The position numbers and the translations under genes were made by a program. A stretch of 51,661 bases of DNA from Peptococcaceae bacterium (GTDB taxonomy: Bacteria; Bacillota; Dehalobacteriia; UBA4068; JAAVYR01): contig JAAVYR010000009.1 in NCBI GenBank assembly GCA_022791255.1, positions 1-51,661 of the forward strand, in the 5' to 3' direction. Positions 31,051 to 47,695 of this stretch are shown here, piece after piece. The notes below the pieces were generated by a model, which saw only the letters and a list, made by a program, of their open reading frames with translations, did not search any database and was not told the origin of the DNA. Every line of letters begins with the position of its first letter. The first letter of the stretch is position 1.

Positions 31051-32319
31051 AACCGTATAAAGAGTATAAAGACAGCGGCGTGCCTTGGATTGGGAAGATA
31101 CCGAAGGATTGGGGAGTTAAGAAATTAAAATATATATTTAAAATAAATATGGGACAATCTCCTGATGTTGATAAATGCAATAATGAAAAAATGGGAATAC
31201 CTTTTTTACAAGGGAAAAAGGATTTTGGTATAATTTCACCTATTGCTACTACTTATTGTACGGAACCCAAAAAAAATAGCTTTAGCAAATGATATAATGA
31301 TGTCTGTCAGAGCTCCTGTTGGCGATATAAATATAGCAGATATCGAGTATTGTATAGGTAGAGGCTTATGCGCATTAACCCCGTTAAAAATGAATATTAA
31401 TTATTCTTGGTATATGCTTTCTTGTATATCAGAACCGTTAAAAATGCTATCCACCGGTACAACATATGAAGCTGTTTCTATTGATGACATTAAAAACATT
31501 TATATTGTTTATCCGAAAAAAAATATTCAGTCAAAAATATCAGATTATCTTGACCGAAAGATTGCTGCTATTGATACACTGATAGCGGACAAGCAAAAAA
31601 TGATTGAGTTGTTAAAAGAAAGCAGACAAGCTATCATAAGCGAAGCAGTAACAAAAGGACTTGATAAAAATGCAAAAATGAAGGATAGCGGTATTGAATG
31701 GATAGGAGAAATACCGGAGGATTGGGAAGTTGTTCCAATTACAAAATATCTAAATAGTCTTATTGATTATCGTGGAAAAACTCCAAACAAGGTTGAGGAA
31801 GGAATTTTTTTAGTAACAGCTCGTAATATAAAAAATGGAATTATTGACTACTCTCTTTCTCAAGAGTATGTTTCTATATGTGAATATGAGAGTATTATGC
31901 ATCGTGGCAAACCTCAGATTGGAGATGTTCTGTTTACTACGGAGGCTCCATTAGGAGAAGTTGCAAATATAGATAATGAAGATATTGCTTTAGCTCAGCG
32001 TGTAATAAAATTTTGTGGTAAAGATAATATTCTAAATAATTATTATCTGAAATATTGGATGTTGTCATCTAAATTTAAAGAGTTCCTTTTATCTCTTTCT
32101 ACGGGTTCTACCGCAGAAGGTATAAAAGGAAGTAAGTTATTCTTACTAAAAATGCCTATTCCTCAAATTGATATACAAAAAACAATAGTTATATTTCTTG
32201 ACAAAAAGACAACAGAAATAGACAACCTCATAATTGATATAACAACGCAAATCGAAAAACTCAAAGAATACCGTCAGGCAATTATATCCGAGGCGGTAAC
32301 GGGAAAGGTGGAAATATAA
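31047..32319 (+). pseudogene. hsdS: type I restriction specificity subunit, frameshifted at an A8 tract
   Basis: This is two overlapping frames of a single hsdS. The first frame (from ATG 31047) reads to ...YCTEPKK then NSFSK and stops at 31292. The second frame continues correctly as IALANDIMMSVRAPVGD to 32319. The switch lies in a run of eight A at 31269-31276; seven A would restore one protein of about 423 residues. Both halves carry the repeated HsdS features: KDSGVPWIGKIPKDW and KDSGIEWIGEIPEDW before each target recognition domain, and two RQAIISEAVT helices. It could be truly broken, phase-variable by slippage, or a sequencing error in the homopolymer. Confidence 0.88.
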
Positions 32320-35297
32320 TGGCAATCCAAACAAAAGAAATCAATTTTGAAAATGAGATTGAGTATGCTTTAATTGAAAACGGTCATTATGTGAAAGGTA
32401 ATCCATCTGATTTCAATAGAGAATATGCAATTGATACCGCTAAGCTGTTTGAGTTTTTGCAAAACAGCCAACCTGACGAATGGAAAAAGCTGTGCGAAAA
32501 ACATGGAGCTAATGCGGAACAAAATTTTCTGAAAAGACTATCCAAAGAACTTGACAACCGTGGTATGCTTGATGTTTTGCGAAAAGGTGTAGTTGATGCA
32601 CCCGCAAAATTTAAACTATGCTATTTTAAGCCGGCGAGCAACATGAACCAAACCGATACCGCCAATTATACAAAGAATATTTTATCGGTGACAAGGCAGG
32701 TACACTATTCTTTGAAAAATGAAAACTCTATTGATGTTGTTTTATTTATAAATGGACTGCCTGTTGTTACAATGGAACTTAAAAATCAAATAACAGGCCA
32801 GACTGTAGAAAACGCAAAAAGGCAGTATAAATATGATAGAGATTGCCGAGAACTTTTGCTGGGGTTCAAGTCAAGATGTCTTGTCCATTTTGCGGTCGAT
32901 ACAGATGAAGTTTATATGACAACAAAACTTGATGGAGTAAACACATACTTTTTGCCATTCAATAAAGGCAATAATGGTGGCAAGGGTAATCCGCAGGGCA
33001 ATGGAAATTATCGTACATCATATCTGTGGAATGAAATTTTGCAAAAGGACAGTCTGTTGGATATTATTCAAAGGTTTGTTCATCTTAAAGTAAGTGATAA
33101 CGGTAAAAAGGAAACACTTATTTTTCCTCGTTATCATCAGCTTGATGTGGTAAGAAAAACCATTTTTGATGTTAAGAAAAATGGTGCGGGAATAAATTAT
33201 TTGATCCAGCACAGTGCAGGCAGCGGAAAGTCCAATTCTATTGCATGGCTTGCACATCATCTCTCAAGTCTGCATGATGATAATGATAAAATCATATTTA
33301 ACAGTATTATTGTTATAACTGACCGTATTGTTTTAGATAGACAACTGCAAGATACTATTTATCAATTTGAGCAAGTTGAGGGAGTTGTTATAAAAATAGA
33401 CCAGAGTTCCTCTCAGCTTGCAGATGCTCTTAATACTGGCAAGAAAATAATTGTAACAACTTTGCAGAAATTTCCTTTCATACTTGCAAAAATCGGTGAT
33501 TTATCTGGGAAAAATTTTGCAATTATTATTGATGAGGCCCATTCATCTCAAACAGGTGAAGCTAGTAAAAAGCTCAAGGCGGTATTGGGCGATGCATATC
33601 AGGGATTAAGCGAAGAAGAAAAATTGCAGAAAATAGCAGAAGATGAGGCAAAAGAAGAAAAATCAGTCGTAGACCATGAGGATGAGATTACGAAAGAAAT
33701 GGCAATTCATGGCAAGCTTAAAAATCTTTCATTTTTTGCATTCACTGCTACGCCAAAGCCAAAAACACTTGAAATGTTTGGAACAATAGGCGATGATAAC
33801 TTACCTCATCCTTTTCATTTGTATTCTATGCGTCAGGCTATCGAAGAAGGCTTTATTCTTGATGTATTGAAAAACTATATGACATATGATACTTATTTCA
33901 AAATAGGTAAAACGATTGCCGCTGACCCAAAATATAATAAAGCAAAAGGTAATAAAGCGCTGGGAAAATTTTTAAGCTTGCATCCACACAATTTAGCACA
34001 GAAAACACAAATTATGGTGGAGCATTTCAGAACCATTACCAAAAATAAAATCGGCGGCAATGCTAAAGCCATGCTTGTAACAGGTTCGAGACTTCATGCA
34101 GTTAGATATTATTTTGCATTTAAAGATTATATTAAGAAAATGGGTTATGAAAAAGAATTGGGTATTTTAGTCGCATTTTCCGGCACTGTTTTTGATAATG
34201 GAGAGGAATATACTGAAACAAATCTTAATAAAATCAAAGAAAGCGAGTTGCCCAAAACCTTCCATGAAAAGGAATATCAAGTTTTACTTGTTGCCGAAAA
34301 GTATCAGACGGGTTTTGATGAACCATTGCTGCATACGATGTTTGTTGATAAAAAGCTCGGTGGTGTAAAGGCGGTTCAAACGCTTTCAAGGCTCAATCGT
34401 ATTTGCAAGGGAAAGGAAGATACTTTTGTGCTTGACTTTGTAAATTCTGCTGAAGATATAAAAAAGGCATTTGAGCCGTATTATGAGGAAACAAATATTT
34501 CAGAAGTAACCGATATAAATATTGTTTATGATTTGAAATCAAAACTGGATGAATATCGTATATATTGGGATTCCGAAATAGAGAATTTCAGCAAAGTTTT
34601 CTTCAAAAAAAGTACGAAACAAGAAAACATAGATTTCGGAATGTTGAACGCATATATTGATCCTGCTGTTGACAGATTTAAAGGAAAAACTGAAAAAGAA
34701 CAAGACGATTTTAAATCTCAACTTGCAAAATTTACGAGAACATATTCCTTTGTAACAAGTATTGCGAAACTTGATGATAGGCAATTACACAAATTTCATG
34801 CTTATGCAAAGCTACTTTTAAGGAAATTACCTAAAGATAGTTTAGGAAATTCGATAAATTTAGATGATGAGGTATCCCTTCAATACTATCGTTTACAGAA
34901 AATTTTTGAAGGCAGTATTGAGCTTGAAAAGGCTGAACCATTACCAAATAATAAATATGCGGAAACGGGGAAAAAATCTGATGAAGAAACTTTATTATCA
35001 GAATTAATCGAAAATATAAATGAGCGCTTTGGAACAGAGTTTGAAGAGGTGGATAAAGTTCTGATGCAGTTTGTTGCCGATATGGAGAAAAATGATAATT
35101 TGCGAACACAAGCTATGAATAATTCCAAAGAACATTTTAAATTTCCGTTCAATGATGCTTTTATGGAAATTGTTGTTGAGCGTATGATACAGAATGATGC
35201 TTTTTGTACAAAGATTTTAGATGATGAAAAATTTCGGAACGAAATATCTGAACTTATGGTTGGATATGTTTATGATAAACTAAGAGCAGGTATTTAA
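32319..35297 (+). CDS. hsdR: type I restriction enzyme, ATP-dependent endonuclease/translocase subunit
   Basis: This 992-residue protein has an N-terminal nuclease domain with the PD-(D/E)xK core (D in SIDVVLFING, then ELK in TMELKNQITG). Walker A is HSAGSGKSNSIAW (about residue 305), the DEAH box is IIIDEAHSSQ, motif III is FAFTATPK, and TGFDEPLLHTMFVDK lies in the second RecA domain. It cleaves unmodified DNA after translocation. Its start overlaps the hsdS stop (TAATG), so all hsd genes form one operon. Confidence 0.95.
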   Translation: MAIQTKEINFENEIEYALIENGHYVKGNPSDFNREYAIDTAKLFEFLQNSQPDEWKKLCEKHGANAEQNFLKRLSKELDNRGMLDVLRKGVVDAPAKFKLCYFKPASNMNQTDTANYTKNILSVTRQVHYSLKNENSIDVVLFINGLPVVTMELKNQITGQTVENAKRQYKYDRDCRELLLGFKSRCLVHFAVDTDEVYMTTKLDGVNTYFLPFNKGNNGGKGNPQGNGNYRTSYLWNEILQKDSLLDIIQRFVHLKVSDNGKKETLIFPRYHQLDVVRKTIFDVKKNGAGINYLIQHSAGSGKSNSIAWLAHHLSSLHDDNDKIIFNSIIVITDRIVLDRQLQDTIYQFEQVEGVVIKIDQSSSQLADALNTGKKIIVTTLQKFPFILAKIGDLSGKNFAIIIDEAHSSQTGEASKKLKAVLGDAYQGLSEEEKLQKIAEDEAKEEKSVVDHEDEITKEMAIHGKLKNLSFFAFTATPKPKTLEMFGTIGDDNLPHPFHLYSMRQAIEEGFILDVLKNYMTYDTYFKIGKTIAADPKYNKAKGNKALGKFLSLHPHNLAQKTQIMVEHFRTITKNKIGGNAKAMLVTGSRLHAVRYYFAFKDYIKKMGYEKELGILVAFSGTVFDNGEEYTETNLNKIKESELPKTFHEKEYQVLLVAEKYQTGFDEPLLHTMFVDKKLGGVKAVQTLSRLNRICKGKEDTFVLDFVNSAEDIKKAFEPYYEETNISEVTDINIVYDLKSKLDEYRIYWDSEIENFSKVFFKKSTKQENIDFGMLNAYIDPAVDRFKGKTEKEQDDFKSQLAKFTRTYSFVTSIAKLDDRQLHKFHAYAKLLLRKLPKDSLGNSINLDDEVSLQYYRLQKIFEGSIELEKAEPLPNNKYAETGKKSDEETLLSELIENINERFGTEFEEVDKVLMQFVADMEKNDNLRTQAMNNSKEHFKFPFNDAFMEIVVERMIQNDAFCTKILDDEKFRNEISELMVGYVYDKLRAGI

Positions 35298-35394
35298 TGG
35301 ATTTTGCATATTTTCAATTAAAGAACAGCTTTGCTGGGCTACTATATGGCATTGACTGACGGCTCAGAAAATCATGATTTGCGGGAGAGATATT

Positions 35395-35808
35395 ATGCTT
35401 GAAAATATACCATCTCAATCAATTATGATTGAATTGCTTGGACAACCCTTGTATGAAGTTTGGCAAGCGTTATGTTCGGCTATTGATGAAAAATATGATA
35501 TGGAACGGCTATGGAATACTGGCGGGAAGAATTGGACTTATGAGTATAAGTATCGCAGAGGCGGGAAAACTCTTTGTAGCTTATATGCAAAAAGTAATTG
35601 TGTTGGGTTCATGATTATTTTCGGGAAAGAGGAACGATCAAAATTTGAGGATATAAGGGATACTATTTCTAGTGCTGTTTGTCGGCAATATGATGAAGCA
35701 CAAACTTACCATGATGGGAAATGGGTCATGTTCGAGCCGACAGATACAGCCGATTTTGATGATTATATAAAATTATTGGCGATCAAAAGAAAACCTAATC
35801 GAAGATAA
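35395..35808 (+). CDS. DUF3788 family protein
   Basis: This 137-residue cytosolic protein has the family pattern WNTGGKNWTYEYKYRRGGKT-LCSLY, a GFMIIFGKEERSKFE segment and the ending LLAIKRKPN. The function of the family is unknown. The ATG at 35395 follows GGGAGAG; the frame is open from 35374. It is the last gene before the right attachment site and is separated from hsdR by 97 bases. Confidence 0.8.
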   Translation: MLENIPSQSIMIELLGQPLYEVWQALCSAIDEKYDMERLWNTGGKNWTYEYKYRRGGKTLCSLYAKSNCVGFMIIFGKEERSKFEDIRDTISSAVCRQYDEAQTYHDGKWVMFEPTDTADFDDYIKLLAIKRKPNRR

Positions 35809-35865
35809 TAATTCATCTTTTCTGCAAACAATGAGCGGATGCTGGCGTTATACTGGTGTTTTGAT

Positions 35866-35901
35866 GGCGCCCAAATGCGACTCTTAGCAGATGGTAAGGG
35901 C
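35866..35901. other. right attachment site of the integrative element
   Basis: GGCGCCCAAAT (35866-35876) is the inverted arm inside the element, followed by the core GCAGATGGTAAGGGC (35887-35901). Joined to the left end, these form an attP of about 50 bases with 11-base arms centred on the core. The element supplies the stop codon TAA (minus strand, 35886-35884) right after the interrupted feoB codons. Confidence 0.85.
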
Positions 35902-37161
35902 TTGCTTGCCACAAGCGTGGCATTCTTTGAATAGTTTATCTAAATTAAAAGCGAGGCGGGGCAGATAGCCCAAGTCTTCTAGCAGCGTAAACAATGGGAA
36001 AAAGATGGCCATGGGTGGTAACATAACGGAAATAACCCAGCCTAATGTACGAAACACACCGCAAATGAATAAGTCTGTAAACCAAAGCGGAAGATTACTA
36101 GTGTTAGCAATGCTGAGAAGCCAGTTTTCTGCCGAAAAAAAGAATTTAGATAATAGCTGGGAAGGATAGTTTGCGCCTACAATGGTCAACCAAAAAATGA
36201 TGCCTAATAGTAGTATCATCATGGGAATACCCCAGGTTTTACTAGTGAGGATTTTATCTAGCTTGCGGTCAAATTTGGCATAGTTTTCATTGGAAATGGT
36301 CACCGTTTCATGATAAATTTGTTCCCCTTTTGAGATATAGGCGGCTGTAATCATATCTTTTCTGGCATCAAGGGAGATTTTTTCTGCTGTCAAAAGGTCG
36401 TTTGCTTGGGCAAGCAATGGTGCAAAAGTCGGGTCCTTACGGAAGTCTTCTCCTGCTAGAACTGCAATTTTTTCCCATAAGATTTTATCATCGCCTAAGA
36501 GTTGTAAGGCAATCCAGCGACTATTTAATCCTTGGATGTGATATTCGATAGCAGGCGTCAGCATATTGATGGCAGTTTCCAACGGTTCCAGATAAGGGAT
36601 TTTTAGGGGAGCTGCCTTTTGGTTACTTTGGGTGATGTGGGCAATGGCTGCCATTAGTTCCTCTAAACCTTTGCCGTTACGGGCGGCTGCACCTACTACG
36701 GGAATACCTAATTGCTCTTCTAATTCTGGTAGGTTAACTGTAATATGTTTTTTGGCTGCTTCATCTAGTAGGTTTACGCAAAGAATGGTTTGAGGACAGA
36801 TTTCCATGGTCTGCAGAACTAAATTCAGGTTTCGTTCCAGGCAGGTGGCGTCCACCACGATAACCACAGCATCAGGGTAATCGAAGCAGAGGAAGTCTCT
36901 GGCAACTTCTTCCTCGGCAGAGTGGGCCATGAGGGAATATGTACCAGGTAAATCTACCAATGTGTAGGTTTGGTTTTCATAGGTGTATTTTCCGCGGGCA
37001 TTGCTAACTGTTTTTCCTGGCCAATTTCCGGTGTGTTGGTTTAGTCCTGTTAAGCTATTAAATATAGTGCTTTTCCCTACATTTGGGTTGCCGGCTAAGG
37101 CAATGATTTTCTCCGCTGGGGGAATGGTATGACGGTTTTTGTCATGGGTTCTTTTATCCAT
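35884..37161 (-). pseudogene. feoB: feoB 5' part (GTPase and first Gate region), interrupted by the element
   Basis: This encodes about 425 residues: the G domain with G1 GNPNVGKS (24-31), G3 DLPGTYS and a G4-like NLLDE. A helical GDI-like domain and the first membrane helices and Gate region follow (GIPMMILLLGIIFWLTIVG, CGVFRTLGWVISVMLPPMAIFFPLFTLLEDLGYLPR). It stops after HACGKQALTIC, where FeoB should continue into GFGC; the rest is at 16912-17772. The preferred start is the ATG at 37161, preceded by GGGAGG; an upstream ATG at 37179 has AAGAGG/AAGAAGAG. The truncated product is not expected to transport iron. Confidence 0.93.
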
Positions 37162-37224
37162 GTTGTTCCTCCCACTCATTTTCTCTTCTTCCTCTTTGAC
37201 TCTCTGTTTCTCTGTTTTTTTATA

Positions 37225-37509
37225 TCAAAAGGCGACGATGATTTGACTTGCGTCTTCTTGCCGTAAGGCGATAACTGTTCCTCTTACCAAGTAGGCGGTA
37301 GGGTCGCCTAAGGGGCTATGATAAAGGCACTGCACCTTTGTGCCGACGATAAAGCCCAAGTCCAGAAGGCGGCGACGCATATCTCCTGTAAGCATTAGCT
37401 GGGAGATGGTAGCTTTTTTACCAATGGGTAATAGGTGTAGTGGTTGATAGAGTTTTATATCCTGTGAGGGAATGCTAGTTGGTAAACTTGTTGGTTTTGG
37501 TCTTTCCAT
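37225..37509 (-). CDS. feoA: ferrous iron transport protein A
   Basis: This small SH3-like FeoA domain protein has about 94 residues (MRRRLLDLGFIVGTKVQCLYHSPLGDPTAYLVRGTVIALR). FeoA assists the FeoB channel in the cytosol. The ATG at 37509 has GAGG seven bases upstream; another ATG lies at 37515. It is followed after 45 or more bases by the interrupted feoB. FeoA itself is intact but has no intact partner in this window. Confidence 0.9.
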   Translation of the reverse strand: MERPKPTSLPTSIPSQDIKLYQPLHLLPIGKKATISQLMLTGDMRRRLLDLGFIVGTKVQCLYHSPLGDPTAYLVRGTVIALRQEDASQIIVAF

Positions 37510-37590
37510 GGTCATGCCTCATTTTCTTTGCTTTATTTCTTGCTGATAGTATATGGGGAAATAAATGATTGGTACATTGTCCGTAAAAAT

Positions 37591-37626
37591 AAAAAAGATT
37601 GCAGCCGTTTTGGTTGCAATCTTTTT
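37591..37626 (-). terminator. terminator of the fabD-fabT unit
   Basis: AAAAAGATTGCA pairs with TGCAATCTTTTT. On the minus strand the stem is followed by a T-rich run, just after the marR-type gene. Confidence 0.85.
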
Positions 37627-37650
37627 AAGATAAGTTGTTTCTGATATCAA

Positions 37651-38112
37651 TTATGTCTGTTGATTTTGTTCTACTAACATTTGAAAGAAATTACTTACTT
37701 TTGCGATGAAGGCAAAAATCATGTCATCATCTTCGCTGGGGAAAAATTGGTCAATGGCGTCAGTCATTTTTTGATGAAAGCCTTCATGAATACGGAACAC
37801 ATCTTCTCCTTTTTCTGTAAGGGTGAGGAGCACGGCTCTTTTATCAGTAGCGTCCTTGATGCGCTTGACGAAATTTTTTCGTTCCATGCGGTCGATGGCA
37901 AGGGTCAGAGAGGAAATGGTAATGCGTAAATCTTCTGCTACTTCGCTCATTCTTCTTTTACCGGAAAGGCCAATTTTCTCGATAATATGGGCTTCTGTCA
38001 CAGAAAAATGTATATCCTTTGTCTGTTGGGACTGGATATAGCTTTCCTCTAGCTTTAAGATGTTGTTAAATATTTGGGTCAGAAAAGTATTGATTTCCTC
38101 TCTGCGTTTCAT
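37651..38112 (-). CDS. fabT: MarR-family transcriptional regulator, FabT-like
   Basis: This 153-residue winged-helix protein (MSEVAEDLRITISSLTLAIDRMERKNFVKRIKDATDKRAVLLTLT carries the recognition helix and wing) lies 55 bases after fabD on the same strand, next to the whole fatty acid operon. FabT of streptococci and relatives represses fab genes with acyl-ACP as co-repressor; the same role is inferred here from position and from operator-like repeats in the divergent promoter at 39135-39190. GGAGG precedes the ATG. The symbol is by context, and other MarR proteins cannot be excluded. Confidence 0.78.
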   Translation of the reverse strand: MKRREEINTFLTQIFNNILKLEESYIQSQQTKDIHFSVTEAHIIEKIGLSGKRRMSEVAEDLRITISSLTLAIDRMERKNFVKRIKDATDKRAVLLTLTEKGEDVFRIHEGFHQKMTDAIDQFFPSEDDDMIFAFIAKVSNFFQMLVEQNQQT

Positions 38113-38167
38113 GATTTGCCTCCAAGTCTGCCTCTCATCCTGTCTTAAAAAGCTATCTTTTATAGGG

Positions 38168-39097
38168 TTAGCCCCTGCAATAAGTGATAAAATCCTGTAG
38201 TTGTTCTAATGCTTCCAGGGTATAGATTTTGCTGCTGCGGTCAATACGGCGGTTAAAGCCGGCCAGGGTCCGGCCAGGGCCAACTTCAGCAAAAGTAGAA
38301 ACACCTGTTGCAAGCATGGCCTCAATGGTGGTTTGCCATTTTACGGGGTGGGTCATGTGGTTTTCTAAGTGGGCTGGGATATCTGTGTCTTGGCCTAACA
38401 AAGTCCCTGTCAGGTTGGTATAAATCGGGAAAGTTGGTGCGTGGAAAGTAAAGCCTCCTAAATAATTTTTCATTTCAGCAGCAGCGTCTGCAATAAGTGC
38501 TGTATGAAAAGGGCCGCTGGTGTTTAAGGGGACGGCTTTCATAGCGCCTTTGGCAAGGCTTGCAGCAGCAGCTTCTTCTATGCCTTTTATCGTACCGGAA
38601 ATAACCAGTTGTTTTGGGCAATTATAATTAACGGGGCAGACAAAGTCTGCTGCTTCTTGGCAGATTTCTTCTACCTGTTCGTTGCTGAGGCCGATAATAG
38701 CAGCCATAGCGCCTGGATGGTCCACAGACGCTTTTTGCATGAGCTCGCCTCGTTTTGCTATGATGCGGATGCCATCTTCTAGGGAGAAGACGCCAGCGGC
38801 GCAAAGAGCGCTGTATTCGCCTAGGGAGAAACCGGCGACCATATCTGGTAAAATGCCTTCTTCTTTTAACGCCAGGAAAATACCCATAGAAAGGGTAAAA
38901 ATAGCGATTTGGGCATTAACGGTCTGAGATAATTCGTTCTCTGGTCCTTGAAAACAGAGGGTGGCAATGTCTTTGCCAGTAACTGCTTTTGCAGTATCAA
39001 AAGCCTGTTTTACCATAGGGTATTCGCGATATAGTGCCTCTCCCATGCCTACGGTCTGACAGCCTTGCCCAGGGAAGAGAAATGCTTTTTTCGTCAT
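38168..39097 (-). CDS. fabD: malonyl-CoA:ACP transacylase
   Basis: This 309-residue transferase moves malonyl from CoA to ACP to feed chain elongation. It opens with FLFPGQGCQTVGMG, the nucleophile motif is GFSLGEYSAL (Ser in GxSxG), and the catalytic His is in GPFHTALI. The ATG at 39097 (MTKKAFLFPGQG) has AAGGAG seven bases upstream; the frame opens earlier at 39145, but that part lies in the promoter. It is oriented opposite to the other fab genes and shares the promoter region with them, an uncommon arrangement. Confidence 0.95.
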   Translation of the reverse strand: MTKKAFLFPGQGCQTVGMGEALYREYPMVKQAFDTAKAVTGKDIATLCFQGPENELSQTVNAQIAIFTLSMGIFLALKEEGILPDMVAGFSLGEYSALCAAGVFSLEDGIRIIAKRGELMQKASVDHPGAMAAIIGLSNEQVEEICQEAADFVCPVNYNCPKQLVISGTIKGIEEAAAASLAKGAMKAVPLNTSGPFHTALIADAAAEMKNYLGGFTFHAPTFPIYTNLTGTLLGQDTDIPAHLENHMTHPVKWQTTIEAMLATGVSTFAEVGPGRTLAGFNRRIDRSSKIYTLEALEQLQDFITYCRG

Positions 39098-39134
39098 TGT
39101 TTCTACTCCTTTTATGAAACCTGTTCGACAGGAT

Positions 39135-39190
39135 TTGTTTGACAATCTTTTTCTCTTGCATTATAATAAAGAAAATTTAGTTTGTCAAAC
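39135..39190. promoter_or_regulatory. symmetrical divergent promoters with two FabT-like operators
   Basis: Forward: TTGACA (39139-39144), 17 bases, TATAAT (39162-39167). Reverse: TTGACA (39188-39183), 17 bases, TATAAT (39165-39160). Both have consensus hexamers and share the same -10 region. Each -35 lies inside a GTTTGACAA motif (39137-39145 and, inverted, 39182-39190), i.e. the dyads TTGTTTGACAA and GTTTGTCAAAC. A repressor bound to these would cover both -35 elements and control fabD-fabT and fabH-acpP together. Confidence 0.8.
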
Positions 39191-39225
39191 AAAGTATTTT
39201 GTTTGCAGAAGGGAATTTCAACAAA

Positions 39226-40218
39226 ATGACTTGTTCTTGTATTAGTGGCATGGGAAAATACTTGCCTGATTATATTTTAACCAATGATGGTCTTGCGGAA
39301 ATCGTGGAAACCTCTGACGACTGGATACGGGAGCGGACTGGGATACGGGAACGCCGGGTGTCTCATGGGGAAGCTACTTGGCAGATGGCCTTAAAGGCAG
39401 CTAAAGATTGTGTGGCAGATTGGCAGGGCAATCCTCAAGATATCGACTTTGTCATTGTGACCACGCTGACGCCGGACTATTATACGCCAAATACGGCTTC
39501 TGCCATTGCGGCAGAGTTAGGTTGTGACCATGCTTTTGGCTTTGATTTATCTGCGGCCTGTACGGGTTTTGTCTATGGCTTAGATGTGGCGGATAGTTAT
39601 ATTAAGGCAGGTAAAGCCAAACATGTGCTGGTCGTTTCTGTAGAAAATATGACGCGGATTTTGGACTTTACAGACCGTACAACCTGTGTGCTCTTTGGTG
39701 ATGGAGCGGGAGCGGCTATCCTTTCCGCTTGTGAAGACAGCAGTAAACGAGGGGTAATCAGTTCTTACTTGGCATTGGACGGCGGTCGTCGTTCGGTGTT
39801 GACTGTGCCTGCTACCGTCTGTCATGAAAAAATGCCTTGGGAGGAAACGGTGGCCGATACCAATGGGCGCCATGCGGTAATGATGGATGGTACGGAAGTA
39901 TTTCGCTTTTCTATCGGCGCCATTACCGAGGCAGTAGACAGGGCTTTAGAACGGGCAAATCTTACCATTGACGATATTCAGTGGTTTATCCCTCATCAGG
40001 CTAATATTCGTATTATCCAACATTTTGCTCATCGGTATCATTTGGAGATGGAAAAAATCTTTACCAATATTGATAAATATGGTAATACTTCTAGCGCTAG
40101 CATTCCTATTTGCCTCAAGGAAATGAAGGAACAAGGTAAAATCCAAACAGGTCAGCTAGGATTGATTGTGGGCTTTGGCGGCGGTCTTTCTTATGGTGCG
40201 GCGGTTGTTGAATTTTAA
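39226..40218 (+). CDS. fabH: 3-oxoacyl-ACP synthase III
   Basis: This 330-residue enzyme starts chain synthesis by condensing acetyl-CoA or a branched acyl-CoA with malonyl-ACP. The catalytic Cys is C112 in DLSAACTGF, the His is in WFIPHQANIRI and the Asn in GNTSSASIP. The ATG at 39226 follows AGAAGGGAA; upstream codons in the same frame run into the operator. It is the first gene of the plus-strand fatty acid operon. Confidence 0.95.
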   Translation: MTCSCISGMGKYLPDYILTNDGLAEIVETSDDWIRERTGIRERRVSHGEATWQMALKAAKDCVADWQGNPQDIDFVIVTTLTPDYYTPNTASAIAAELGCDHAFGFDLSAACTGFVYGLDVADSYIKAGKAKHVLVVSVENMTRILDFTDRTTCVLFGDGAGAAILSACEDSSKRGVISSYLALDGGRRSVLTVPATVCHEKMPWEETVADTNGRHAVMMDGTEVFRFSIGAITEAVDRALERANLTIDDIQWFIPHQANIRIIQHFAHRYHLEMEKIFTNIDKYGNTSSASIPICLKEMKEQGKIQTGQLGLIVGFGGGLSYGAAVVEF

Positions 40219-40289
40219 GTGTATTTGTGATTTAATTATAGTTTGATTAGAAGGATATTTTTATAGAAGTAATTGTGGGAGGTTCTGAC

Positions 40290-41231
40290 ATGAAAACGAG
40301 CGTTACAGAACTGCTAAACATCGAATATCCAGTGCTCCAAGGGGGTATGGCCTGGGTTTCAGACGCAAGGCTTGCGGCTGCGGTATCAAAAGCTGGGGGA
40401 CTGGGGATTATTTCTTGCGGTTCTGCGCCTGCTGAGGTTATCCAAAAAGAAATTAGGCAGGTGAAAGAACAAACAGATAAACCTTTTGGCATTAATATCA
40501 TGCTCATGAGTCCTTATGTAGACGATATGGCGGAGCTGGTAAAACAAGAACATGTGCCAGTGGTAACTACTGGCGCTGGAAATCCTAGTAAATATATTGC
40601 TGGTTGGAAAGAGGCTGGTACCAAGGTAATTCCGGTTATTCCTTCTGTAGCTTTGGCAAAGCGCATGGAGCAAGCTGGTGCTGATGCTGTCATTGCCGAA
40701 GGCTGTGAGTCTGGTGGGCATATTGGAGAGTTGACGACCATGGCATTGGTGCCCCAGGTGGCCTCTAATGTAACTATTCCTGTCATTGCTGCTGGTGGCA
40801 TTGCTGATGGCAGAGGGGTGGCCGCTGCTTTTATGCTAGGTGCAGCAGGGGTACAATGTGGTACTGTGTTCCTGGCATCGGAAGAATGCGATATTCATGA
40901 TACATATAAAGAATTAGTGATAAAAGCAGGTGATACAGGGACGGTAGTGACGGGCAGAAGTCATGGACATCCTATTCGCTGCTTGAAATCTCCCATGGTT
41001 AATGAATATTTGAAACAGGAAAAAGCCGGTGTAGACTTTATGGAGTTGGAAAAACTGGCTTTGGGTTCTCTGCGAAAAGCAGCCCAAGAAGGCAGCCGGG
41101 AAGAGGGGTCCTTTATGTGTGGGCAGATTGCTGGACTTGTAAAGGAAATCCGTCCTTGTCAGCAAATTATAGAAGATTTAGTAAACGGTGCTGTCAGCAT
41201 AATGAATGAGACAGCTGCAAAAATAAAATAG
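40290..41231 (+). CDS. fabK: enoyl-ACP reductase II (FMN)
   Basis: This 313-residue flavin enzyme of the nitronate monooxygenase/FabK fold reduces trans-2-enoyl-ACP in the last step of elongation. Signatures are YPVLQGGMAWVSD at the start, CESGGHIG and PVIAAGGIADGRGVAAAFMLGA for FMN phosphate binding. GGGAGG seven bases before the ATG at 40290 sets the start. No FabI is seen, so FabK is the operon's only enoyl reductase, which fits low triclosan sensitivity. Confidence 0.94.
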   Translation: MKTSVTELLNIEYPVLQGGMAWVSDARLAAAVSKAGGLGIISCGSAPAEVIQKEIRQVKEQTDKPFGINIMLMSPYVDDMAELVKQEHVPVVTTGAGNPSKYIAGWKEAGTKVIPVIPSVALAKRMEQAGADAVIAEGCESGGHIGELTTMALVPQVASNVTIPVIAAGGIADGRGVAAAFMLGAAGVQCGTVFLASEECDIHDTYKELVIKAGDTGTVVTGRSHGHPIRCLKSPMVNEYLKQEKAGVDFMELEKLALGSLRKAAQEGSREEGSFMCGQIAGLVKEIRPCQQIIEDLVNGAVSIMNETAAKIK

Positions 41232-41244
41232 AGGAGGCGGCCTA

Positions 41245-41979
41245 ATGAAACAAATTGCCATTGTAACCGGTTCTTCTCGTGGTATTGGGGCTGCCATTGC
41301 CGAAAACTTAGCAGCCCAAGGTATGGATGTGGTCATTAATTGTCGTAAAAGCGCGGAGCAGGGGGAAGCAGTGGCGGAAAAATGCCGTGCTCATGGTGTA
41401 GAGGCGCTTGTGCTTCCTTGGGATGTGGCAGACTTTGCTGCTTGTGAGGCAAGCGTCAATACCATCGTAGAAAAAATGGGTGTGCCAACAGTTCTCGTGA
41501 ATAATGCCGGTATTACCCAAGATGGTCTCTTAATGCGCATGACAGAGGGACAATTTGACGCTGTCATCAATACCAACCTGAAAAGTACTTATAATATGAC
41601 AAAGCTGTGCTGTCCGCTGATGATGAAAGCTCGGTATGGTCGTATCATCAATATTTCTTCGGTAGCGGGGGTCTATGGTAATGCGGGGCAAGCCAACTAT
41701 GCAGCAGCAAAAGCTGGCATGATAGGCTTTACCAAAGCAGTGGCAAAAGAATTGGGCAGCCGGAATATTACTGTCAATGCAGTAGCACCAGGCTTCGTGG
41801 AAACAGATATGACTAAAGACCTAAACGACGCTATCAAAGAAGCTGCCCAAAAGAATATTGCTTTGAAGCGCTTTGCCAAACCAGAAGAAATCGCAGCCCT
41901 TGTTGGCTTTTTAGCCTCTCCTGCTGCTTCTTACATTACATCACAGGCTATTCTTGTCGATGGCGGTATGGCGTTATAA
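41245..41979 (+). CDS. fabG: 3-oxoacyl-ACP reductase
   Basis: This 244-residue short-chain dehydrogenase has TGSSRGIGAAIA for NADPH binding, the NNAG motif, catalytic Ser in INISSVAG and YAAAK (YxxxK). It reduces 3-ketoacyl-ACP. GAGGAGG precedes the ATG, 13 bases after fabK. Confidence 0.96.
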   Translation: MKQIAIVTGSSRGIGAAIAENLAAQGMDVVINCRKSAEQGEAVAEKCRAHGVEALVLPWDVADFAACEASVNTIVEKMGVPTVLVNNAGITQDGLLMRMTEGQFDAVINTNLKSTYNMTKLCCPLMMKARYGRIINISSVAGVYGNAGQANYAAAKAGMIGFTKAVAKELGSRNITVNAVAPGFVETDMTKDLNDAIKEAAQKNIALKRFAKPEEIAALVGFLASPAASYITSQAILVDGGMAL

Positions 41980-42054
41980 ATCGAGTAGATATTAGTAAGT
42001 AGATAATAGATTGAAATACTGAGATAAGGATTGAAAAGAAAGTTGGAGAACAAT

Positions 42055-43305
42055 ATGGAACGAGTAGTTATTACAGGGACAGGTGTTGTTTCCCCTGTGG
42101 GTAACAATACCCAAGAATTTTGGCAAAATTTGCTCCAGGGAAAATGCGGTGTGGGGCATATTTCTACCTTTGACACCAGCGAATATAAGGTATCATTAGC
42201 TGCAGAAGTAAAAGATTTTCATCCGGAAGAATATTTAGACCGGAAAGAAATCCGTCACATGGACCGTTTCTGTCAGTTTGCGCTGGTAGCTGCAGAAGAG
42301 GCTATGGCCATGAGCGGCTTGGACACTAAGGCAATGGCGGAACAAAACGATGAAGCGCTCTATCGTTACGGCGTTTACTTTGCTAGTGGGGTAGGCGGTA
42401 TCCAGACCATTGAAACAGAACACGAAAAATTATTAATCAGAGGCCCTAGCCGGGTTTCTCCTTTCTTCGTGCCCATGATTATCAGCAATATGGCGGCAGC
42501 GTATATCTCTATGCGCTTTGGTTTAAAGGGTAGCTGCATTTGCCCGGTAACGGCTTGTGCCTCTTCTACCCAGGCCATTGGGGAAGCCTTCCGTGCTGTA
42601 AAACATGGGTATTTAGATGTGGCAGTCGTTGGCGGGGCAGAAGCCTCTATCACGCCTTGTTCTATTGCTGGCTTTGGTAATATGCAGGCCCTATCTGGCG
42701 CTGAAAACCCTGATGAAGGGTCTCTGCCTTTTGATAAGAGAAGAGGCGGCTTTGTTATGGGGGAAGGGGCAGGCGTTTTGGTAATAGAAAGCCTCAAGCA
42801 CGCTCAGGCGCGCGGTGCGCAGATTATGGGGGAAATTAGTGGTTATGGTTCCACGGCTGACGCATATCATATTACAAGCCCTCATCCAGAAGGAGAAGGC
42901 GCAGCTCGCGCTATGGCCATGGCAGTAGAAGAAGCTGGCCTTGCCATGACCGATGTGGACTATATCAATGCTCACGGTACTGGTACGCCGCTCAATGATA
43001 AATATGAAACCAAAGCCATTAAACGGGCTTTTGGTGACTATGCAAAAGAATTAGTGATTTCCTCTACGAAATCTATGACAGGCCATTTATTGGGGGCAGC
43101 TGGGGCTATTGAAGCCATTGCCCTTGCTTACACTTTAAAAGAAGGCAGTATTCCCCCAACGATTAACTTAAAAGAACCAGATGAAGAATGTGATTTGTTC
43201 TACACACCAAATAAAGCCCTCTCTAAGTCTGTCGCTGTCGGTCTCAGCAATTCTTTAGGCTTTGGTGGGCATAACGGTTGTATCTTATTACGGAGGTATG
43301 AATAA
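42055..43305 (+). CDS. fabF: 3-oxoacyl-ACP synthase II
   Basis: This 416-residue KAS II elongates acyl-ACP by decarboxylative condensation with malonyl-ACP. The catalytic Cys is in VTACASSTQAIGEA, the two His in NAHGTGTPLND and GHLLGAAGAIEA. MERVVITGTGVVSPVG is the usual start; the ATG at 42055 has TGGAG upstream. Its stop overlaps accB by one base. Confidence 0.96.
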   Translation: MERVVITGTGVVSPVGNNTQEFWQNLLQGKCGVGHISTFDTSEYKVSLAAEVKDFHPEEYLDRKEIRHMDRFCQFALVAAEEAMAMSGLDTKAMAEQNDEALYRYGVYFASGVGGIQTIETEHEKLLIRGPSRVSPFFVPMIISNMAAAYISMRFGLKGSCICPVTACASSTQAIGEAFRAVKHGYLDVAVVGGAEASITPCSIAGFGNMQALSGAENPDEGSLPFDKRRGGFVMGEGAGVLVIESLKHAQARGAQIMGEISGYGSTADAYHITSPHPEGEGAARAMAMAVEEAGLAMTDVDYINAHGTGTPLNDKYETKAIKRAFGDYAKELVISSTKSMTGHLLGAAGAIEAIALAYTLKEGSIPPTINLKEPDEECDLFYTPNKALSKSVAVGLSNSLGFGGHNGCILLRRYE

Positions 43306-43793
43306 TGAACAGTTTACAAGACGCAAAAAACTTTGCTTTAGAAATGTTGACCCAGGCCCAAGGTACTGGCGTTAGTAGCTTTGAGTTTGAATATGAAGGA
43401 TTGAAAATCAAAGGCAGCTATTCCGGAATGATTGCAAGCTCCGGCGCGCCTGCTCAGTTTGTCATGGAGACACCTGTTCAGCCCAAGGCGGCGGCTAGCG
43501 CCATGCAGCAAGAAGTCGCTCAAGAAGTAGCGCCTGCACCTGTGGTAAGTGCCAATGTAACGGATGTAAAAGCACCTCTGGTAGGAACATTTTATGCAGC
43601 ACCTTCTCCAGACGCAGCTCCTTATGTGTCTGTGGGGCAAAAAGTGCAAAAGGGCGATGTGCTTTGCATTGTAGAAGCCATGAAGAATATGAACGAAATC
43701 GAATGCCCTTGCGACGGTACGGTGGTAGATATCTTAGCTAGCAATGGGGAATTGGTAGAATTTAACCAAGTGCTCATTCAAATCGAAGCATAA
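43305..43793 (+). CDS. accB: acetyl-CoA carboxylase biotin carboxyl carrier protein
   Basis: This 162-residue protein has an N-terminal helix, a Pro/Ala-rich linker and a C-terminal biotinyl domain. K127 in VEAMKNMNEI is the biotin attachment site. It is coupled to fabF by a TAATG overlap. Confidence 0.95.
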   Translation: MNSLQDAKNFALEMLTQAQGTGVSSFEFEYEGLKIKGSYSGMIASSGAPAQFVMETPVQPKAAASAMQQEVAQEVAPAPVVSANVTDVKAPLVGTFYAAPSPDAAPYVSVGQKVQKGDVLCIVEAMKNMNEIECPCDGTVVDILASNGELVEFNQVLIQIEA

Positions 43794-43809
43794 GAAATCA
43801 GGTGAAAAT

Positions 43810-44247
43810 ATGACGGTTACAAATTTAACCAAAGCGGATATAGAAAAGATTATTCCTCATCGTGCTCCTATGCTCCTCATCGATGAAATCGTCGAAATGG
43901 AAACAGGTGCTTGGGCTCATGGCAGAACCCATCTTCGTGGTGATGAATATTTCTTTCAAGGGCACTTCCCGGGGCATCCTGTGCTTCCTGGGGTGATTAT
44001 GGTGGAAGCTTTGGCACAAACTGGTGCTGTGGCTATTCTTTCTATGCCGGAATTTCAAGGCAAGGTAGGATACTTTGCCGGCATTGATAAAGTGCGCTTT
44101 AAGCGGAAGGTGTATCCTGGTGAAACCTTAGACCTAAAGGTAGAAATCATCAAGCGCCGTGGGCCTATCGGCTATGGCAAAGCTGAAGCATATGTAGACG
44201 GAGAGCTTGCTGTTTCCGGGCAGCTTACCTTTGCCATCGGGGACTAG
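43810..44247 (+). CDS. fabZ: 3-hydroxyacyl-ACP dehydratase
   Basis: This 145-residue hotdog-fold enzyme has IPHRAPMLLIDEI and the active-site helix HFPGHPVLPGVIMVEALAQTGA (His in HFPGHP and Glu in the helix). It forms trans-2-enoyl-ACP. No FabA or FabM is present in the cluster, so the route to unsaturated chains is not visible. Confidence 0.96.
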   Translation: MTVTNLTKADIEKIIPHRAPMLLIDEIVEMETGAWAHGRTHLRGDEYFFQGHFPGHPVLPGVIMVEALAQTGAVAILSMPEFQGKVGYFAGIDKVRFKRKVYPGETLDLKVEIIKRRGPIGYGKAEAYVDGELAVSGQLTFAIGD

Positions 44248-44290
44248 AAAATATCTGGCTAAATCTGGCTAAGAAGGAGAAATTCTCATT

Positions 44291-45643
44291 ATGTTCAAGA
44301 AAATATTAATTGCCAATCGAGGCGAAATCGCGGTAAGGGTCATCCAAGCTTGCCGGGATATGGGGATTATCAGTGTGGCCGTATATAGTGAGGCAGATAG
44401 AGAAGCGCTCCATGCGCAACTGGCTGATGAGTCTATCTGCATAGGTCCGGCAAGAGCCAAAGATAGCTATTTAAATATGGATAATATTATTACAGCGGCG
44501 TTAGGTGTGGGAGCGGACGCAATCCATCCTGGTTTTGGCTTCTTATCTGAAAATGCTGTTTTTGCACGGAAGTGCCAGGAAGCGGGTATTGTTTTCATCG
44601 GACCTAGTCCTGAAACTATGGAAAAAATGGGTGATAAAATCGCAGCGCGGGAAACAGCGTTGAAGGCTGGTGCGCCAGTAGTACCTGGTTCTCATGGGGC
44701 TGTTGGCTCTTATGAGGAAGCAGAAGCCATCGCAAAAGAAATCGGTTTTCCGGTGATGATTAAAGCGTCGGCCGGCGGTGGCGGCAGGGGGATCCGCAAG
44801 GTAGACCGTATGGAAGATTTGCAGCATCATTTCCTCTCAGCGGCAGCAGAAGCAGAGGCAGCCTTTGGCGACGGCAGTCTTTATATCGAAAAGTTTGTAG
44901 CCAATCCTCGGCATATTGAGTTTCAAATCTTGGCGGACAGCTTTGGCACGGTGGTGCATCTGTTTGAACGGGAATGCAGCATCCAACGGCGCCATCAGAA
45001 GCTTTTAGAGGAGTCTCCATCTCCTTTCTTAGATGAAGAATTACGCCAGAAGATGGGGGCGAGTGCCATTGCCATTGCTAAGGCTTGCAACTATTGTAAT
45101 GCCGGGACCATTGAATTTTTGGTAGATGATAACCGGAATTATTATTTCTGTGAAATGAATACTCGTATCCAAGTGGAACACCCGGTAACGGAGTCTGTCA
45201 CTGGGGTGGACTTGGTGGTAGAGCAAATTCGTATTGCAGCAGGGGAGCCTATCTCCTTTGCTCAGGAAGATATTGTGCAGCGGGGACACGCCATCGAGTG
45301 CCGTATTAATGCAGAGGATTACACGCGGGACTTTATGCCTTGTCCGGGCACGATTATCGGGCTCCACACGCCTAGTGGGCCGGGAGTGCGGGTAGACTCT
45401 GCTGTGTATCAGGGGTGCACTGTTTCACCGTTTTATGATAGCATGCTTAGTAAGCTTATCGTTACCGGCAGCACGCGAAAGCAGGCCATCGCTCGGATGA
45501 AGCGTGCTCTTGCAGAGTATCTCTTTGAAGGGATTATTACCAATATTGATTTTCAGTTGAAGATTATTGATACACCGGAATTTATTGCCGGGGATTATGA
45601 TACCGGCTTTATCGAACGAAGCAATCTACTGGCCAAATCATAA
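44291..45643 (+). CDS. accC: acetyl-CoA carboxylase, biotin carboxylase
   Basis: This 450-residue ATP-grasp enzyme carboxylates biotin on AccB. It has KILIANRGEIAVRVIQACRDMGI at the N-terminus, the glycine-rich ATP loop KASAGGGGRGIRK, and EMNTRIQVEHPVTE near residue 285. AAGGAGAAA precedes the ATG. Confidence 0.96.
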   Translation: MFKKILIANRGEIAVRVIQACRDMGIISVAVYSEADREALHAQLADESICIGPARAKDSYLNMDNIITAALGVGADAIHPGFGFLSENAVFARKCQEAGIVFIGPSPETMEKMGDKIAARETALKAGAPVVPGSHGAVGSYEEAEAIAKEIGFPVMIKASAGGGGRGIRKVDRMEDLQHHFLSAAAEAEAAFGDGSLYIEKFVANPRHIEFQILADSFGTVVHLFERECSIQRRHQKLLEESPSPFLDEELRQKMGASAIAIAKACNYCNAGTIEFLVDDNRNYYFCEMNTRIQVEHPVTESVTGVDLVVEQIRIAAGEPISFAQEDIVQRGHAIECRINAEDYTRDFMPCPGTIIGLHTPSGPGVRVDSAVYQGCTVSPFYDSMLSKLIVTGSTRKQAIARMKRALAEYLFEGIITNIDFQLKIIDTPEFIAGDYDTGFIERSNLLAKS

Positions 45644-45679
45644 TCAGGCTAGATTAGGCTAGGGTAAGAGGTGCATGAT

Positions 45680-46534
45680 ATGCTCATTGATTTGTTTAAG
45701 AAAACACGTTATATTTCTGTAGATTTAGACTACAATGAACGTCAAAAAGAGTTGGGACCATTGGTGGTTTGTCCTTTTTGTAAGAAATCTATGCGGGCAA
45801 AAGAATATGAACAGCGGCTCCATCAGTGCCAACATTGCGGTAAATATGGTCGGCTTAACCCAGAACAGCGTTTAGCTATGACCGTAGATGAGGACAGCTT
45901 TCAGCCCATGAATGAAGGGGTCTATACTACCAATCCTCTGGATTTTGCAGGTTATGAAGAAAAGATAGCGACGCTGCAAGAGAAGACTGGCTGTACGGAA
46001 GCGGTAACTACTGGGGTGGGAACCATCTTAGGAGAAAAGGCTTGCATTGCCGTGATGAACAGTGAGTTTTTAATGGCGTCTATGGGCTCTGTGGTAGGGG
46101 AACGTTTGACGCGCCTTTTTGAGTATGCTACAGAGGAGCGGTTGCCAGTGATTATTTTCTGTGCTTCTGGTGGTGCTCGTATGCATGAAGGTATCCTCTC
46201 TCTCATGCAGATGGCAAAGGTCAGCGGCGCGGCAGGAAAGCACTCCCAGGCAGGACTGCTCTATATCACGGTGCTGACGGACCCGACTACCGGCGGGGTA
46301 ACGGCTAGCTTTGCCATGCTGGGTGATATTATCTTAGCGGAGAAAAATGCAACTATTGGCTTTGCTGGCCGGCGGGTTATTGAGGGGACCATTGGTACAG
46401 AGTTGCCAAAGGATTTCCAAACAGCAGAGTTTGTCGAAAAACATGGTTTTGTGGATAAAGTAGTATCCCGTCAGGAATTAAAAGAAGTTTTAGGAAAAAT
46501 CTTAAAACTTCATCGATTGGAGGCAGGGAATTAG
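45680..46534 (+). CDS. accD: acetyl-CoA carboxylase, carboxyltransferase beta subunit
   Basis: This 284-residue subunit has an N-terminal four-Cys zinc ribbon (CPFC ... CQHC), then the crotonase-fold carboxyltransferase with SGGARMHEGILSLMQMAK and FAGRRVIEGT. The ATG at 45680 has AGAGG eight bases upstream; an upstream GTG (45671) is the alternative. It pairs with AccA to move CO2 to acetyl-CoA. Confidence 0.95.
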   Translation: MLIDLFKKTRYISVDLDYNERQKELGPLVVCPFCKKSMRAKEYEQRLHQCQHCGKYGRLNPEQRLAMTVDEDSFQPMNEGVYTTNPLDFAGYEEKIATLQEKTGCTEAVTTGVGTILGEKACIAVMNSEFLMASMGSVVGERLTRLFEYATEERLPVIIFCASGGARMHEGILSLMQMAKVSGAAGKHSQAGLLYITVLTDPTTGGVTASFAMLGDIILAEKNATIGFAGRRVIEGTIGTELPKDFQTAEFVEKHGFVDKVVSRQELKEVLGKILKLHRLEAGN

Positions 46535-46536
46535 AG

Positions 46537-47355
46537 ATGAGTGGAGAACATAATAAAATTACTGCCAGCCAACGGATAGAAATCGTCAAACAAAAGACCC
46601 GTCCTAATGTGGTGGACTATATTTCTCGGATTTTTGATGACTTTATTGAGTTCAGAGGGGACCGGGCTTTTGGTGACGACCAGGCCATCTTAGGCGGCAT
46701 TGCTCGTCTGGGGGATTTGCCGGTGACGGTTATCGGTCATCATAAGGGGAAAAATACCCAGGAAAATATCGACTTTAACTTTGCCATGGCTCATCCAGAA
46801 GGTTATCGGAAGGCGCTCCGGCTGATGAAACAAGCGGAAAAATTCCATCGTCCTATTATCTGCTTTGTGGATACGCCAGGTGCATATTGCGGTATTGGCG
46901 CAGAGGAACGAGGGCAAGGGGAAGCCATTGCCAAGTCTCTCCAGGTAATGATGGCGCTGGAAACACCAGTGATTACCATCGTCACAGGGGAAGGCGGCAG
47001 CGGCGGGGCCTTGGGTCTTGCAGTGGCCAATAAAGTTTATATGTTGGAAAATGCTGTTTATTCGGTGATTTCACCAAAGGGTTTTGCCAGCATCCTCTGG
47101 AAGGATGCAACCCGTGAAAAGGAAGCAGCAGAACTCCTCAAGATGACTGCGCAAGATTTATATGAGGCTCATATTATTGAAGGTATCATCCCTGAACCAG
47201 AAGAGGGCGCTCACAAAGATGTGAAGCAAATGTGTAAAAACATCGAGGCTGTATTAAAAAAGGATTTGGCAGAACTTACGGCGAAAACAGGAGTAGAACT
47301 TGCGCAGCTTCGTTACGAAAAATTCCGTCATATGGGCGTATTCTTAGAACGGTAA
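46537..47355 (+). CDS. accA: acetyl-CoA carboxylase, carboxyltransferase alpha subunit
   Basis: This 272-residue carboxyltransferase partner of AccD has FRGDRAFGDDQAILGG, the oxyanion region DTPGAYCGIGAEERGQGEAIA and GEGGSGGALGLA. It begins two bases after the accD stop; GGAGG lies about 13 bases ahead. It is a little shorter than E. coli AccA, lacking part of the N-terminal helices, as is usual in Gram-positive bacteria. Confidence 0.95.
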   Translation: MSGEHNKITASQRIEIVKQKTRPNVVDYISRIFDDFIEFRGDRAFGDDQAILGGIARLGDLPVTVIGHHKGKNTQENIDFNFAMAHPEGYRKALRLMKQAEKFHRPIICFVDTPGAYCGIGAEERGQGEAIAKSLQVMMALETPVITIVTGEGGSGGALGLAVANKVYMLENAVYSVISPKGFASILWKDATREKEAAELLKMTAQDLYEAHIIEGIIPEPEEGAHKDVKQMCKNIEAVLKKDLAELTAKTGVELAQLRYEKFRHMGVFLER

Positions 47356-47403
47356 ATACCTATATAATATAGTAAAAATAAATAAAAAATAGGAGGGTAT
47401 ATC

Positions 47404-47631
47404 ATGTTAGAACAAGTAGCAAAAATCATTGCAGACCACTTCGGCGTAAATGCATCTGACATTACTTTGGAAACAAAGATTAAAGAAGATTTGAACGCTG
47501 ACTCTTTGGATGTGGTAGAGCTCATCATGGACTTGGAAGACGCTTTGGGCGTAAAAGTAGATGATGAACAAGCCGCTCAGATGTCTACTGTTGCTGATAT
47601 TGTAAAATATATCGAAGCAAACCAAAACTAA
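47404..47631 (+). CDS. acpP: acyl carrier protein
   Basis: This 75-residue acidic protein carries S34 in [10 protein letters not shown] as the 4'-phosphopantetheine attachment site. AGGAGG precedes the ATG. It is the last gene of the fatty acid operon, ahead of a strong terminator. Confidence 0.97.
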
Positions 47632-47650
47632 TTCTATTTACAAATTACAA

Positions 47651-47690
47651 AAAAGCAGGAAGCTATTATTTTAGCTTCCTGCTTTTTATT
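47651..47690. terminator. bidirectional terminator between acpP and the CDF gene
   Basis: AAAAGCAGGAAGCTA pairs with TAGCTTCCTGCTTTTT. It serves the fatty acid operon (plus) and the convergent metal exporter (minus). Confidence 0.92.
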
Positions 47691-47695
47691 TGGCT

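Follow-up and report, generated by a model that had tools for sequence, protein, structure and literature searches.

The genes fabD and fabH of a Peptococcaceae bacterium (GenBank assembly GCA_022791255.1) diverge from a segment that carries mirror-image promoter sequences, which raises the question whether this segment is one bidirectional promoter and whether its two directions are controlled jointly or apart. Bidirectional promoters have been described as common. The window analyzed here is a 51,661-nucleotide stretch of contig JAAVYR010000009.1 (positions 1 to 51,661, forward strand). The segment is a conserved full-consensus form of the known bidirectional promoter, and it is probably under a FabT-like repressor.

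Organization of the fab locus

The genes on both sides of the segment, with the terminator of the leftward unit, are listed below.

37592-37630, minus strand: probable intrinsic terminator of fabD-fabT (hairpin, then T run; 70-base fold of -16.1 kcal/mol)
37651-38112, minus strand: FabT-like MarR regulator, 55 bases behind fabD
38168-39097, minus strand: fabD, malonyl-CoA:ACP transacylase (TIGR00128, 307.7 bits, above cut-off)
39226-40218, plus strand: fabH, beta-ketoacyl-ACP synthase III, opening the rightward operon (TIGR00747, 371.7 bits)
40290-41231, plus strand: fabK, enoyl-ACP reductase II (TIGR03151, 482.5 bits, above cut-off)
41245-47355, plus strand: fabG, fabF, accB, fabZ, accC, accD and accA, in this order (accB by TIGR00531, the others by ORF reading)
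47404-47631, plus strand: acpP, acyl carrier protein, at the end of the operon (profile search)

The ATG at 39097, preceded by AAAGGAG, was taken as the start of fabD in place of the TTG at 39145 given in the ORF list, and the ATG at 39226 as that of fabH. The terminator at 37592-37630, which is missing from the program's terminator list, was called from its hairpin and T run. A terminator-like hairpin at 47650-47687 follows acpP.

Geometry of the promoter

Between fabD and fabH, positions 39139-39188 read TTGACA-N15-ATTATAAT-N15-TGTCAA, a total of 50 bases that were checked against the letters of the window.

39139-39144, plus strand: -35 TTGACA of the fabH-direction promoter (identical in all 53 loci, which were retrieved with the pattern)
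39160-39165, minus strand: -10 TATAAT of the fabD-direction promoter (promoter scan)
39160-39167, no strand: palindromic -10 core ATTATAAT common to both promoters
39162-39167, plus strand: -10 TATAAT of the fabH-direction promoter (promoter scan)
39183-39188, minus strand: -35 TTGACA of the fabD-direction promoter (promoter scan)

Each strand carries a 12/12 sigma-A promoter with a 17-base spacer, that of fabD being read from 39188-39183 to 39165-39160, and the two -10 elements overlap. A scan of 14 kb (34000-48000) returned only two 12/12 sites, which are this mirror pair. The perfect hexamers, the 17-base spacers and the common -10 region that the sequence-only reading had described were thus confirmed letter by letter. 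Two marks of a bidirectional promoter in the sense of Warman et al. are present, namely a symmetric -10 region serving opposite promoters (ATTATAAT) and a position between divergent, functionally linked genes. By a 7-base rule from each -10, the transcripts are predicted to start at 39153 and 39174, about 21 bases apart. Positions 39139-39188 are read as a true bidirectional sigma-A promoter with both arms of full consensus, from which transcription would proceed both ways.

The word GTTTGACAA lies over both -35 elements, at 39137-39145 (plus) and 39182-39190 (minus), and there is no third copy in the window; nine copies occur genome-wide. Taken alone the word is weak evidence, because 5 of 100 shuffled versions of the window contained at least two copies. 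The inverted word repeated over both -35 elements is actually 12 bases long, TTTGTTTGACAA.

Conservation of the mirror promoter

The exact mirror pattern (20 fixed bases, no mismatch) was found in all three genomes of the window's genus and in 50 of 87 genomes of a Butyricicoccaceae-type family, to which a FabH peptide search had led through Butyricicoccus, Agathobaculum and Intestinibacillus, where fabD and fabH diverge around the same design. All 53 exact matches of genus and family sit at fabD/fabH; both divergent genes are visible in 50 of them, and the other three show one flanking gene only, the contig end being reached. Around the fixed bases, the spacers of 16 clade representatives have a mean identity of about 43%, and FabH of the family is 44-52% identical to that of the window. 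Dozens of distantly related gut bacteria share the exact design.

Outside the genus and the family, exact matches are very rare. Among 35 genomes of the window's order, zero-mismatch matches occur only in the three genus genomes, all at fabD/fabH, and two further genomes have matches with two mismatches. Of 394 genomes of the family's order, 54 match with at most one mismatch; 30 of these are exact, 28 within the family and 2 outside it (G534 and G434), and no fab genes were found near the pattern of G534. In 249 genomes of the phylum the pattern is exact in the window and in one other genome (G653), where it lies at about 1501-1550 of locus L194, with a MarR-like gene on one side and a divergent gene on the other (names from reading). 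This last case suggests that MarR loci may favour the mirror-promoter design.

Invariance of the hexamers over the 53 loci is partly built in, since the loci were retrieved with the pattern. Three results argue that it is not mere selection of loci. No version with one or two mismatches was found at fab among the 87 family genomes; with up to two mismatches allowed, the sole non-exact sites were single ones in G171 and in G143, which also has an exact match. Eight of 15 loci retrieved by FabH peptides alone have the full mirror promoter, the region upstream of FabH having been inspected in all but L010, L011 and L015; L007 ends at a contig edge, L009 has the fabH-direction promoter only, and L012 and L013 have another operon order. 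Finally, FabH was detected (E 1e-30) in only six of the 37 family genomes that lack the promoter, in all six in other gene orders, and in the other 31 fab could be missing, divergent or on lost contigs.

The consensus hexamers are AT-rich, which might let chance or base composition produce such a structure. From base composition, however, about 7e-6 exact mirror patterns are expected per 1.56 Mb genome, all 53 exact matches of two lineages are at fabD/fabH, and a reversed control pattern gave no matches in the 35, 394 and 249 genomes and matches in 2 of 87 at up to two mismatches. A chance origin, already refuted by this conservation, is left with negligible probability.

In a FabH tree the genus is sister to the Butyricicoccaceae-type FabHs (support 100/93), far from the FabH of its own order, on a branch of 1.01 changes per column. 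Either horizontal transfer or ancient inheritance fits this tree.

The candidate operator

When the 53 loci were aligned on the promoter, the fabD side was seen to extend past the -35 element as TA(C/G)TTTG-TCAAW-CAAA(C/G)TA.

39178-39196, no strand: probable FabT-like operator TAGTTTGTCAAACAAAGTA (53-locus alignment; same palindrome at other promoters)
39134-39146, no strand: weaker second copy TTTGTTTGACAAT, operator-like, overlying the fabH -35 (CAAA arm in the window's genus only)

The fabD -35 lies within the palindrome at 39178-39196, which on the predicted fabH transcript corresponds to about +5 to +23. Among the bases outside the hexamer, those preceding it (T, A and TTT) are unchanged in 45-53 of the 53 loci and the CAAA that follows it in 46-52, with a drop to 38-39 at the outermost places; conservation of the operator is in part that of the promoter, because the palindrome includes the -35. 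The conserved 13-mer of this side is TTTGTCAAWCAAA, whose arm positions hold in 46-53 of the 53 loci. Over seven pairs in the 53 loci, arm complementarity is 5.17 on the right (fabD) side versus 3.40 on the left. On the fabH side only the three loci of the genus, out of 52, have a CAAA arm; both hexamers stay in the family.

The sequence-only reading had placed each -35 inside an operator. Inverted copies of GTTTGACAA do lie over both -35 elements, but the longer conserved palindrome is found only at the fabD-side -35, the fabH-side copy being restricted to the genus; the left copy of GTTTGACAA as a general operator was ruled out by the alignment. The position is thereby corrected to one operator, on the fabD side, instead of one per -35. 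The symmetric copies might still each be half of an operator for a FabT complex that loops or binds cooperatively, the matches to the -35 consensus following from that arrangement. Such a reading would fit the genus, where the 12-base inverted word lies over both -35 elements and is identical in three of three genomes; in the family the fabH-side flank has no operator while the hexamers remain, and the half-operator reading is judged very unlikely.

The box at 39181-39193 has conserved TTTG-N5-CAAA arms at a fab promoter, and these arms are common to the window operator and to the FabT boxes quoted in passages on S. pneumoniae (ANTTTGACTGTNAAATT, PMC8406281) and S. pyogenes (ANTTTGATTATCAAATT, PMC10138225). 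Within the lineages studied, the same palindrome recurs in Butyricicoccus immediately after the fabT -10, as TAGTTTGTCAAATAAACTA in L051, L161 and L163 and as one-base variants of it in L160 and L162 (five loci in all). It also precedes a FabK-like gene in the window's genome (G000) and in G002, where TACTTTGTTTG(A/G)CAAACTA with the arms TACTTTG...CAAACTA is located just behind the -10, a position matching that at the fab locus. This gene, at 1404-2498 of L192 and in L193 (G000 contig 5, 55076-56164), encodes a flavoprotein scoring 123.6 bits with TIGR03151, below the cut-off of 453; it was not found in G001, an assembly that is 75% complete. From its upstream sequence, the FabK-like flavoprotein gene probably belongs to the same regulon.

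The operator sites used were restricted to those conserved from genome to genome, at fab, at the FabK-like gene and at the second FabT gene described below. A wider FabT regulon was sought with TTTGWTTRWCAAA plus one mismatch and rejected as near background, with 55 sites against 36 for the reversed pattern in G000. The fabT promoters of Agathobaculum show looser, TTAG...CTAA-like sequences.

The FabT-like regulator

The best NCBIfam model for the product of 37651-38112 is FabT (NF050133, 110.4 bits), and its nearest solved structure is 6jbx, annotated 'Fatty acid biosynthesis transcriptional regulator' (E 1e-22). Both results bear out the earlier naming of a FabT-like MarR gene; the score lies below the model's cut-off of 200, hence 'FabT-like'. 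In a six-frame search no control genome rose above this cut-off, Lactococcus lactis being among the controls that gave matches.

In the classic order, known from the fab operon of Lactobacillales, fabT is the first gene of the fabH operon. Within the window's taxonomic order, other genomes have this arrangement (e.g. L024 and L027). In the window's genus fabT instead lies behind fabD and ahead of a terminator-like hairpin, and in Butyricicoccus (L161-L163) it lies behind acpP with a promoter of its own.

FabT-like proteins were found in 59 of the 87 family genomes and in 38 of the 50 with the mirror promoter, and none was found in the remaining 12. The CAAA arm of the operator is intact in 6 of these 12 and in 32 of the 38 with FabT (Fisher p 0.025), or, with the fifth arm base included, in 6 and 31 (p 0.055), values that ignore kinship and come from draft genomes, which may miss genes. 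The comparison is no more than suggestive of operator decay accompanying FabT loss. Against this trend, the arm is intact in the isolate genome G104 (L006, Intestinibacillus), in which no FabT was found; another protein may bind the operator there. In the clade G140-G144 (L094-L098), in which FabT was likewise not found, neither promoter departs from the exact pattern; the CAAA arm on the fabD side is variable, and the sequence flanking the fabH side is TTTGTCAAACATT.

A second FabT-like gene, with a DegV/FakB-like gene behind it, is present in the window's genome (contig 22, 21424-23165; L059 6425-8165). The classic box TTTGATTATCAAA stands upstream of the pair, with another copy near the start of a divergent gene for a transporter-like membrane protein (ORF reading). 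The repressor at 39178-39196 could be this second protein, or both could act, and the second has the better FabT score (140 versus 110 bits). Its own box, however, has a centre unlike that of the window operator, and the window-like boxes of Butyricicoccus precede a FabT closer to that of the window (40% versus 34%), so a role of the second protein at the fab promoter is rated unlikely. The product of 37651-38112 is retained as the candidate repressor.

Proposed control of the two directions

RNA polymerase would bind the 50-base target in one orientation or the other, never in both at once, the first yielding the fabD(-fabT) message and the second the fabH-fabK-fabG-fabF-accB-fabZ-accC-accD-accA-acpP message. 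Long acyl-ACP is the co-repressor of FabT in Lactobacillales. By this precedent, long acyl-ACP may turn both directions down together through the FabT-like MarR repressor, which is predicted to bind the single 19-base palindrome at 39178-39196. Once bound, it would hide the fabD -35 and block the start of the fabH transcript, so that both directions would be repressed together. In the window's genus, where fabT follows fabD, the repressor would also limit its own synthesis.

Common repression by a FabT-like protein, as the sequence-only reading had suggested, appears to be the likeliest control, given one operator placed over both directions. The accompanying idea of separate regulation for fabD is not upheld, as that one operator would cover both directions. 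Judged from the sequence comparisons, the whole model of a mirror promoter under one FabT-like operator with joint repression is considered likely.

Competition between the directions for RNA polymerase is plausible. A study in E. coli (Warman et al., Nucleic Acids Res 2026, PMC12825309) notes that perfect-consensus promoters may hold polymerase unusually tightly, with the result that activity and occupancy can diverge. The two promoters of the fab locus might, on the other hand, merely overlap, both being used without competition through fast escape or low usage, and the mirror form would then save space and couple the two units to one repressor. In agreement with this, all five bidirectional promoters tested in E. 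coli showed no competition at basal level (PMC12825309), and one shared operator already accounts for common control. The E. coli promoters were, however, too weak to compete, and improving the -35 of one gave competition; at the fab locus both -35 and both -10 elements are consensus and exact in 53 loci, beyond the need of compactness. Mere overlap is a serious possibility that falls short of being probable. Competition could also amount to an allocation device, in which two saturating, equal promoters would compete for one polymerase slot and FabD (with FabT) would be made inversely to the rest, event by event; the FabT site would set only the total, and selection would have held the exact symmetry across two orders. 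Allocation of this kind is regarded as doubtful. Joint repression from one operator remains the preferred reading.

Comparison with known systems

Judged by the listed entries and by passages of PMC4996995, a literature search for this fabD/fabH arrangement found no paper on it. In the passages of PMC12825309, bidirectional promoters have divergent starts on either side of a common -10, 10-23 bases apart, and the distance of about 21 bases predicted here is near the 23-base class of E. coli. The same source describes PacrA/acrR, which resembles the fab locus in its -10, symmetric for both directions, in its divergent, functionally linked mRNAs and in having the repressor gene on one arm (acrR there, fabT here), acting on both RNAs, as is predicted here. 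Unlike the E. coli promoters tested there, which have low basal activity, both arms at the fab locus are of full consensus, exact in 53 loci of two lineages, and the operator is placed in a way specific to FabT-like control.

The Lactobacillales FabT fab operons, as far as described in passages of PMC9083066, PMC13046290 and PMC8406281, share with the locus a FabT-like MarR protein and the TTTG-N5-CAAA arms. The gene set fabH-fabK-fabG-fabF-accB-fabZ-accC-accD-accA is also common to both. The operons differ in that here fabT is not the first gene, acpP is last, and fabD, joined in the window's genus by fabT, lies on the other side of a bidirectional promoter. The FabT-DegV pair of the window's genome with its TTTGATTATCAAA box recalls fakB4 (DegV) of S. 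pyogenes, which is under FabT and has that box too, according to passages of PMC10138225. The pair lies away from the fab locus in the genome, and the centre of its box differs from that of the window operator.

The locus is a natural case of two full-consensus arms that dozens of species keep without change and that join two halves of one essential pathway. It makes directly testable whether bidirectional symmetry itself serves control, and there are cultured relatives in Agathobaculum, Butyricicoccus and Intestinibacillus.

Other features of the window

In the fabH leader (39181-39212, plus strand; -8.8 kcal/mol) the operator half CAAACAAA can pair with TTTGTTTG to form a hairpin, which is kept in the three genus genomes with a longer loop in one. 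Beyond the fabD-fabT unit, feoB (35884-37179, minus strand) stops after 431 codons, the frame being open further in two relatives (516 and 562 codons; L001 and L002). Its 3' end is near a restriction-enzyme-like ORF at 32319-35297 (ORF reading), and feoB looks truncated.
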